A stretch of 43,484 nucleotides of DNA from Candidatus Woesearchaeota archaeon. Lineage in GTDB: Archaea > Nanobdellota > Nanobdellia > Woesearchaeales > GW2011-AR4. The DNA is taken from positions 1 through 43,484 of the forward strand of contig JACPMV010000015.1 of assembly GCA_016185845.1 (NCBI GenBank). The letters are read 5' to 3'. The position numbers and the translations under genes are program-made. Positions within the stretch are counted from its first letter, which is position 1; every line of letters begins with the position of its first letter. The notes below the pieces were generated by a model. That model saw only the letters and a list, made by a program, of their open reading frames with translations, was not told the origin of the DNA and did no database searches. Of the stretch, positions 10,442 to 42,135 are shown piece by piece.

Positions 10442-11158
10442 ATGAAAATGAATTGTAATGATGTTTTAATAGGAAAACCAGCCTTAAATATAGATACCAA
10501 CCTTGCCTATTTTATTGGGGTGCTGAACTCAGACGGATATATTTACATATTTAATGACAAAAAGCGCAATAGAAGACAAATTAGATTAGGGCTAGAAATA
10601 GGTACTAAATCAATAACTATGGGTTTAAAATTTAAGAATATTCTTTTTAATTATTTTGGTAAATCCGTGAATTTAAGACAAAGGCAAAATAGAACTACAT
10701 TAAGCTTACAGACATCTATTAATAAATGTTGGAATCTTTTTAAAAATTGGAATAATGGGAAAATACCTGAAGATATTAAAAATGATAAATCATTGTTTGG
10801 CGCATACTTAGCTGGACTAATAGACGGAGATGGTTATATTAAGATTAAGAAGGATGTGGCAGATAGGCTTATTCCCCAATGTGTTGTAAGGATAGCAAGT
10901 GGTCGTCCATTAGAACATATTAAGAGTTTAATTGAAGAGCATGTTAAATGCAGAGTCCATTTTGAATTTCATAAAAAAAGTAAAGGTGTAAATACTAATT
11001 TTTATATTTCAAAGAAAAGTATACAATTTGTAGAAGAATATGTTTATCCACATTTAGTAATGCCTCATAAGTTGGCTGCCCTTGAAAGATTTTTCAATAT
11101 GAAAGGCGGGCCTGCGAGGATTCGAACCCCGATTTCGGCTCCTATTAGTATAAACTAA
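10442..11158 (+). CDS. LAGLIDADG homing endonuclease (two motifs)
   Basis: P1 LAYFIGVLNSDGYIYIF and P2 FGAYLAGLIDGDGYIKIK; ORF opens at 10373 but the homologous region starts near Met 10442; C-terminus reads antisense through tRNA-Arg. Confidence 0.85.
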   Translation: MKMNCNDVLIGKPALNIDTNLAYFIGVLNSDGYIYIFNDKKRNRRQIRLGLEIGTKSITMGLKFKNILFNYFGKSVNLRQRQNRTTLSLQTSINKCWNLFKNWNNGKIPEDIKNDKSLFGAYLAGLIDGDGYIKIKKDVADRLIPQCVVRIASGRPLEHIKSLIEEHVKCRVHFEFHKKSKGVNTNFYISKKSIQFVEEYVYPHLVMPHKLAALERFFNMKGGPARIRTPISAPISIN

Positions 11159-11209
11159 TAAGATCAACCGGTCCGAAGCCGATTGCACTATCCGTTATGC
11201 TACAGGCCC
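11107..11209 (-). tRNA. tRNA-Arg(TCG) with ~31-nt noncanonical variable-loop intron (intron ~11134-11164)
   Basis: Acceptor GGGCCTG/CAGGCCC; D stem GCAT/GTGC; anticodon arm ATCGG-CTTCGGA-CCGGT; T arm CGGGG-TTCGAAT-CCTCG; extra hairpin TCTTATTAG-TTTATA-CTAATAGGA between anticodon and T arms, with BHB-like CGGT/GCCG helix and TGA/AAA bulges; spliced product is 72 nt. Confidence 0.8.
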
Positions 11210-24841: not shown

Positions 24842-24966
24842 TTTTGAAGATAGCCTATAAAATCATAGACCTTTTTAAACCTGATGCCCAGATTGAAACA
24901 CAATTAAACAAAAATGTCCAAAACAAAACATTTAATAAGATGAGTCGGTTTTTTAAAAATATTATT

Positions 24967-25079
24967 GATTAAGATAGTTATTGAATTGCGCTCATTGTAA
25001 AGCGCAAGTGGAGCAAAAAGAATCAAATGTTTAAACACATTAAACAAGAACCCAATAACGGTTGAACATTAACTAAAAA
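24967..25079 (+). ncRNA. copy A of duplicated leader element (candidate structured RNA or repetitive operator) upstream of ACT-domain gene
   Basis: ~79% identical by hand alignment to 41218-41329; hairpin TTGCGC/GCGCAA; compensatory changes between copies. Confidence 0.55.
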
Positions 25080-25101
25080 TTAATAAAAATCCTTAATCAA
25101 A

Positions 25102-25737
25102 ATGCCCAACATAACAAGATTAACTGAAGCTTACATTTCCGAGCACCCTTCAATAAAGGACTGCCTGAAGAATGACTTGATAAATTACTCGTCTTTGTCA
25201 AGAAAATTAGCATCGGATGCCGGAATAAACATAAAAAAAAATTTCGATGCTATACTGATAGCATGCAGAAGATTCCAGAGAAAGCTGAAAAAGGAGGAGG
25301 TTTTTGAAAGCAGGATATTAAAAATCCTGAAAAGCAGCAAGATCGAGATAAAAAACAAGATAATAGTCATAGTCCTGGAAAAGGACGTGCATTTCGAAAC
25401 CCTGCTGCACATTGAAAAGGAAATAAAAAAGCAAAAGGAGATATTCAGGATCATAGAAAGCGCTTCAGCTATAACAATAATAACTACGGAGGAATTCGCA
25501 GATTTGATCAGGAAAAATTTCAGGAACAAGATAATTGTTGAAAATTCCAATCTTGCCGAAATCACAATCAAGAGCCCGAAGGAAATTGAAACAACTCCCG
25601 GAGCCTATGCCTATCTATGCTCGCTGTTCCAGGAAAACGGCATAAACATAGCTGAGACATTAAGCTGCTGGACAGACACGATTTTTCTTGTAGATGAGAA
25701 GGACGCAGGGAAAGTTATGGGGTTATTACGATTTTGA
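25102..25737 (+). CDS. ACT-domain-containing regulator-like protein
   Basis: C-terminal TPGAYAYLCSLFQENGINIAETLSCWTDTIFLVDEKDAGKVMGLL ACT pattern; helical N-terminus. Confidence 0.7.
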   Translation: MPNITRLTEAYISEHPSIKDCLKNDLINYSSLSRKLASDAGINIKKNFDAILIACRRFQRKLKKEEVFESRILKILKSSKIEIKNKIIVIVLEKDVHFETLLHIEKEIKKQKEIFRIIESASAITIITTEEFADLIRKNFRNKIIVENSNLAEITIKSPKEIETTPGAYAYLCSLFQENGINIAETLSCWTDTIFLVDEKDAGKVMGLLRF

Positions 25738-41186: not shown

Positions 41187-41217
41187 GATTAGGGATTTTT
41201 TTAATTGAAAAGTAATG

Positions 41218-41329
41218 GATTAAGTCGTTAATGAATTGCGCCAATTGTCCAGCGCAGGAAGAACAAACATAATCAAGCGTTTGAACGCATTAACGAATAA
41301 TACAATAACGATTGAACATTAACGAAAAA
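41218..41329 (+). ncRNA. copy B of duplicated leader element upstream of psmA
   Basis: ~79% identical to 24967-25079; TGCGC/GCGCA hairpin; CAWTAAC motif repeated every 14-15 nt. Confidence 0.55.
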
Positions 41330-41388
41330 CACATTAACTAAATTTCAATAAAAACAAATTAAAAAATGATTAACCGGAGGTAATTATT

Positions 41389-42135
41389 ATGCAGCCAATG
41401 CAGCATCAGATGATGGGTTATGACAGGGCAATCACAATGTTCAGCCCTGACGGAAGATTATTGCAGGTTGAATATGCCAAAAAAACAGTAAGGCAGGGCT
41501 CCACGGCAATAGGGATGGTCTGCTCTGACGGAGTATTGCTGGTGGCTGACAAAAGGGTTGTTGACAGCCTTATAGTGCCTGAATCTGTCGAGAAAATCTG
41601 GCAGATTGACGACAACATAGGGGCGGCAGCATCCGGAATATTAAGCGACGCAAGGGTTTTGATAGACAGAGCACAATTAAAGGCGCAGCAGCACAAGGTC
41701 ACTTACGATTCTGAAATCGACACTTTGACCATTGTAAAGGACATATGCGACCTGAAGCAGATATGCACGCAAAGCGGCGGCTTAAGGCCTTTTGGAGTTT
41801 CAATACTTGTAGCAGGCATTGATGATCATTCTCCGAAATTGTTCGAGACAGACCCGATAGGAATATACTTCCAGTACAAGGCAACGGCAATCGGAGAAGG
41901 CGAAGTCGAGGTTGAGGAAATTTTACATAGTGAATACAAGCAGGACATGAGCATTGAAGAAGGCTTAAAGCTGTCTTTGAAGGCCCTTAAAAAGGTCCTT
42001 GGCGAAAATTTTAATGTGGAAAGGATTGATGCGGCTCATATCACAACAGCCGAAAAAAAGTTCAGAAGAGTGGCAAAATCAAAAATGGAGAAGATGTCAT
42101 CAGAGCTGAAAGATGACAAAAAGCCCAAGAAATGA
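41389..42135 (+). CDS. psmA: proteasome alpha subunit
   Basis: YDRAITMFSPDGRLLQVEYAKKTVRQGSTAIGMVCSDGVLLVADKR; SD GGAGGTAATTATTATG. Confidence 0.97.
   Translation: MQPMQHQMMGYDRAITMFSPDGRLLQVEYAKKTVRQGSTAIGMVCSDGVLLVADKRVVDSLIVPESVEKIWQIDDNIGAAASGILSDARVLIDRAQLKAQQHKVTYDSEIDTLTIVKDICDLKQICTQSGGLRPFGVSILVAGIDDHSPKLFETDPIGIYFQYKATAIGEGEVEVEEILHSEYKQDMSIEEGLKLSLKALKKVLGENFNVERIDAAHITTAEKKFRRVAKSKMEKMSSELKDDKKPKK

Follow-up and report, generated by a model that had tools for sequence, protein, structure and literature searches.

A small dispersed hairpin repeat of one Woesearchaeota genus, found upstream of psmA and of an ACT-domain gene

The DNA analysed is a stretch of 43,484 nucleotides from a Candidatus Woesearchaeota archaeon, referred to below as the window; its psmA shows up to 90% identity with records under this name. 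Two similar noncoding regions lie in it in the same orientation, one upstream of an ACT-domain gene (copy A) and one between pop5 and the proteasome gene psmA (copy B). A first-pass annotation had described them as a duplicated element of ~113 nt (24967-25079 and 41218-41329) with ~79% identity by hand count; the duplication holds, with 77% identity over 130 nt in BLASTN (E=2.1e-21). The distances to the genes also agree, as copy A stops 22 nt before the ATG at 25102 and copy B 59 nt before the ATG at 41389. A TTGCGC...GCGCA hairpin (P1) is found in both copies, at 24986-25007 and 41236-41256, and the second hairpin (P2; TGTTTAAACA / GCGTTTGAACGC) and the CAWTAAC repeats were likewise found as described. 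The order of the parts in copy A is a T-rich left arm, GTTATTG, P1, a linker, P2, CAWTAAC repeats and an A-rich right arm. The features are as follows; core matches are those of the covariance model R1, described below.

24905..24939, + strand: promoter/operator-like block AAAAATGTCCAAAACAAAACATTTAA, upstream of copy A and the ACT-domain gene, conserved in the genus
24947..25092, + strand: copy A, whole element, with outer limits inferred from comparison of orthologous loci
24977-25045: copy A core, R1 match of 79.4 bits, E=7.8e-19
24986..25007, + strand: P1 hairpin of copy A (TTGCGC ... GCGCAA, ATTGT in the loop), with covariation over ~150 copies
25028..25037, + strand: P2 hairpin of copy A (TGT-TTAA-ACA), formed family-wide in 42% of copies vs 14% of shuffles
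41190..41365, + strand: copy B, whole element, between pop5 and psmA, with inferred outer limits
41227-41294: copy B core, R1 match of 76.5 bits, E=4.6e-18
41236..41256, + strand: P1 hairpin of copy B
41277..41288, + strand: P2 hairpin of copy B (GCGT-TTGA-ACGC)
41303..41338, + strand: CAWTAAC direct repeats in the right arm of copy B
41376..41381, + strand: Shine-Dalgarno sequence GGAGGT of psmA, intact downstream of copy B and common to relatives without the insert

Perfect matches to CAWTAAC-N7-CAWTAAC occur in the window only at 25053 and 41303. A scan of the window with the 4227 models of Rfam gave tRNA only, and the region of copy A had no match up to E=5. The tRNA gene is found at 11107-11209 on the minus strand; its match covers 103 nt vs 71 positions of the model, so it probably contains an intron.

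The two regions are members of a dispersed hairpin repeat with about 15 copies in the source genome, and other genomes of the same uncultured genus carry it too. Within the source genome BLASTN gave 11 copies (the two of the window and nine further places), and matches were found in 13 of the 39 genomes searched, all from one genus. The covariance model R1 was built from 18 copies and used in the genus with a threshold of E≤0.1; copies are present in 17 of the 20 genomes, with up to 45 per genome (G015: 45, G001: 27, G006: 19, G016: 16, source genome: 15). Across the order, where 145 genomes were searched with R1, matches were confined to the two members of this genus, and none of the other 120 genera sampled from Woesearchaeales contained a copy. 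About 150 copies were fetched with their flanks and realigned, 142 of which could be aligned for the structure counts. Literature searches for repeats of Woesearchaeota and DPANN gave nothing relevant.

The family consensus is TTTATTG...TGCC-ATTGT-GGCA. P1 and the linker are kept nearly everywhere, and both the loop and the linker are conserved and single-stranded. P1 is formed in 98% of the 142 alignable copies vs 51% of shuffles, a figure to be read as an upper estimate because the copies were searched with a model that rewards P1. None of 500 shuffles attained its covariation score, whichever half of the data was used, and the score also exceeded every slid control; the third-position pair, C-G, has changed to G-C in three genomes and to T-A in four. 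P1 thus has genuine, independent compensatory changes. P2 is supported in part; it is formed in 42% of the 142 copies (14% of shuffles) and has the variant stems GCGU/ACGC and AAUUC/GAAUU. The proposed closing helix is part of the fold predicted for either window copy but is not copy-specific across the family: the left arm of a copy pairs with its own right arm at -12.4 kcal/mol and with that of another copy at -12.5 kcal/mol (shuffled: -11.3 kcal/mol). The arms, T-rich and A-rich with GTTAWTG and CAWTAAC, are candidate terminal inverted repeats; since they have no specific mutual complementarity, they do not establish a classical long-palindrome MITE. A mini-ORF in the TGC frame (C-A/P-x-C-K...) was considered and rejected: the frames are open in 19, 32 and 15 of the 142 copies vs ~20 expected, which indicates no conserved protein.

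Of the 150 copies, 34 are followed by the CAWTAAC pair, which is a module. Such pairs recur at 14-15 nt in both window copies, and this had raised the alternative of a DNA operator array bound by a regulator. That reading is scarcely credible, since the pair follows only this minority of copies whereas P1 and the linker are kept almost throughout, and operator binding does not explain the compensatory changes of P1. A second hairpin module (TTCAATCCG - stem with TTCG - CAAA..AGTGCTCGGC) was also seen just downstream of the element, e.g. in L206, L218, L250 and L263; it lies within 200 nt after at least 19 of the 150 copies, vs one in the upstream control.

The 150 copies represent about 87 distinct sites, nearly all of them intergenic and one coding. 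Judging by names read from sequence, the neighbours are unrelated housekeeping genes (gyrB, ispH, ispG, thyA/DHFR, tyrS, aspS, eIF2-gamma and others). An association with neighbouring tRNA genes was considered and is not general for the element. Between co-directional genes the element is in the sense orientation at 63 of 68 sites and antisense at five (p=8e-14); antisense placements are few and some are conserved. Among all copies, 98 begin at most 60 nt after a co-directional stop codon, following a T-rich tract, and copies generally have an A-T rich tract 14-30 nt upstream. The element is placed between convergent genes (19) about as often as between divergent genes (16), which excludes a purely 5'-leader role.

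These placements bear on the function first proposed, a cis-regulatory RNA common to two unrelated genes. A leader RNA, riboswitch-like or protein-bound, that controls the genes behind it, psmA and the ACT-domain gene among them, would fit the two hairpins (one clearly covarying), the conserved single-stranded loop and linker, and the location of copy A between promoter and start codon. However, the copies stand beside dozens of unrelated genes rather than upstream of functionally related ones, some of them antisense and one site in frame within a coding gene; convergent and divergent sites are equally common, copy B lies within an operon, and most relatives, close ones included, lack the element at either site. 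An element scattered next to unrelated genes, and in one case within such a gene, is not a switch common to the ACT-domain gene and psmA, and we consider a leader RNA very improbable. Independent small RNA genes, each with its own TATA box in the T-rich tract, would account for the general A-T rich tract upstream and for conserved copies at convergent and antisense sites. Against this, the copies read have no discrete 3' terminator, free-standing genes would not be expected to show the sense bias, and one site lies inside a coding gene; this explanation too has very little to recommend it.

Judged from orthologous loci, three sites (psmA, ACT and kinase) have gained the element relative to relatives. 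The distance from the stop codon of pop5 (PF01900) to psmA is ~15-46 nt in relatives and 202 nt here, filled by the element, so that by this comparison copy B is an insertion into the pop5-psmA operon, upstream of the intact Shine-Dalgarno sequence. The psmA loci of other Woesearchaeota gave no confident match to the element. In L041 and L095 the same spacer contains a different insertion, with a second psmA ribosome-binding site and start region, followed after the duplicate start region by an inverted copy of it.

Among the genus orthologues of the ACT-domain gene with retrieved upstream DNA, all but one with a short flank have the promoter block. A conserved block ending CATTTAAATA lies ~28 nt before the ATG in G002, G005, G009, G012, G017 and G019 (somewhat more than 28 nt in G017 and G019), and the leader is without the element in six congeners. 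From this distance, the message of the ACT-domain gene is probably leaderless or short-leadered in several relatives. The source genome and G006 have the element between the conserved block and the ATG, while other or decayed repeats occupy the leader in G001, G010, G015 and G016. One of these is another small repeat (GAGCGACTTTT...ACAGC...AAAGTGAACCGC), which replaces the element in G001 and G010 (L345 and L342). Separately, an inverted repeat AAATGT-N10-ACATTT at 24912-24933 overlaps the TATA-like element of the ACT-domain gene and is conserved in the orthologues of the genus; it looks like an operator, perhaps an autoregulatory one.

The coding site is an adenylate-kinase-like ORF, which contains the element in frame in G010, G016 and G018. 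The protein is uninterrupted in at least seven congeners (including G011, G008, G001, G015, G002 and G014), and the gene of the source genome has a CATTAAC-rich remnant. At psmA and inside the kinase gene, the T-rich tract arrives together with the insertion. The species are too diverged for a target-site duplication or the exact ends to be read at the psmA, ACT and kinase junctions.

Concerning the age of the copies, 28 of the 87 sites are common to two or more genomes. Copies at orthologous sites are 70.7% identical vs 68.8% for unrelated copies, and at shared orthologous sites the variable positions have drifted to background while the core is still recognisable. Many insertions are therefore old. 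No genome contains near-identical copies (the best pair has 91% identity in the core and 84% with arms), so no recent movement is seen. P1 is nevertheless kept at the 28 shared sites, more than a neutral, decaying insertion would do. Old copies whose core can still be recognised point to selection acting on the structure, to recurrent insertion at favoured sites or to gene conversion, in no order of preference.

A search limited to Y1 transposases found none tied to the element. Mobility driven by IS200/Y1 was rejected, the Y1 transposase being absent from the copy-rich genomes G000, G001, G006, G008 and G010. G015 has two IS200-like (Y1) elements (L166 and L191) that each adjoin, with the left end, the A/T-rich arm of a repeat copy, the relative orientation differing between the two; both IS copies end in the arms of the repeat and do not carry it.

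The conservation of P1 at old sites also bears on a further alternative, namely a functional element of the transcript (3'-UTR, inter-cistronic or a terminator-type hairpin) that is under selection and whose spread is secondary. Here the T-rich tract after the stop codon would end transcription, and P1 and P2 would protect or process mRNA ends. The 98 copies close behind a co-directional stop and a T-rich tract, the sense bias between co-directional genes (63 of 68 sites), and the retention of P1 where variable positions have drifted all agree with it. However, some antisense and divergent placements are conserved, one copy lies inside a coding gene, the T-rich tract comes with the insertion itself, and orthologous sites in relatives are without the element. 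We regard this alternative as unlikely; a transcript-level role may have been acquired after the repeat arose.

Several known bacterial repeats are similar in part. Rickettsia palindromic elements (RPE) insert in frame within Rickettsia genes (PMC10969869), and are likewise ~150 bp long, structured, present in many copies and found in frame in unrelated protein-coding genes (here at one site, in three genomes). The likeness lies in these general features; the element differs in being nearly all intergenic, with one of ~87 sites coding, in its archaeal host and in its weak long palindrome. In Streptococcus pneumoniae, the structured repeats BOX, RUP and SPRITE can be co-transcribed, and their present-day movement is slow (PMC3049150). 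They are also small and interspersed with conserved secondary structure, RUP and SPRITE being AT-rich and BOX modular, whereas the present element has a strong sense bias, a host from another domain of life, and no demonstrated terminal inverted repeat with target duplication. REP elements share the hairpin in an intergenic repeat, located between co-directional genes near 3' ends. REPs are palindromes of 20-40 bp with GTAG/CGTC tags (PMC3733652); the consensus here has neither tag and, unlike a REP/RAYT system, several genomes with many copies have no Y1 transposase. In Neisseria, the Correia repeats (CREE/NEMIS) are also dispersed and adjoin genes; they can add promoters or bind RNase III, affecting neighbours (PMC2649163), and they differ in having defined inverted repeats.

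We conclude that both window regions are, with good probability, copies of a small non-autonomous interspersed repeat of ~130-170 bp which has spread through one Woesearchaeota genus. It is best read as a new family of the RPE/BOX/REP/MITE kind, though not as an established member of the MITE class proper, which calls for exact ends, a target duplication and a partner enzyme. The repeat has spread mostly into short intergenic spacers. Its copying would proceed either through RNA or through an enzyme that acts in trans on the hairpin, probably recognised in single-stranded DNA, and the copies would be co-transcribed with the neighbouring genes. Copy B lies in the spacer of the pop5-psmA operon, and copy A probably supplies a leader to the ACT-domain gene, the mRNA of which probably has none in several relatives. 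The persistence of P1 where insertions are old and shared suggests selective retention of some copies, perhaps for processing or stability of the co-transcribed mRNA. Because the sense orientation dominates and old copies keep P1, a transcript-level role has some standing, and a more speculative version can be put forward with low confidence: the RNA structure itself would be selected, the repeat having spread almost exclusively in the sense orientation, directly behind stop codons, by insertion coupled to transcription or RNA, and then having been retained in mRNAs of DPANN archaea, between cistrons or at 3' ends.

A DPANN lineage with tiny genomes thus has its own structured interspersed repeat. 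This repeat makes the spacers within operons longer, has enlarged a kinase by ~30 internal residues and probably supplies a leader to a gene for which relatives have none. Caution is due when a covarying hairpin is seen in a leader in this group, as it can be a repeat instead of a riboswitch. The preference for the sense strand raises the testable question of whether it reflects the mode of movement or the reason for retention.
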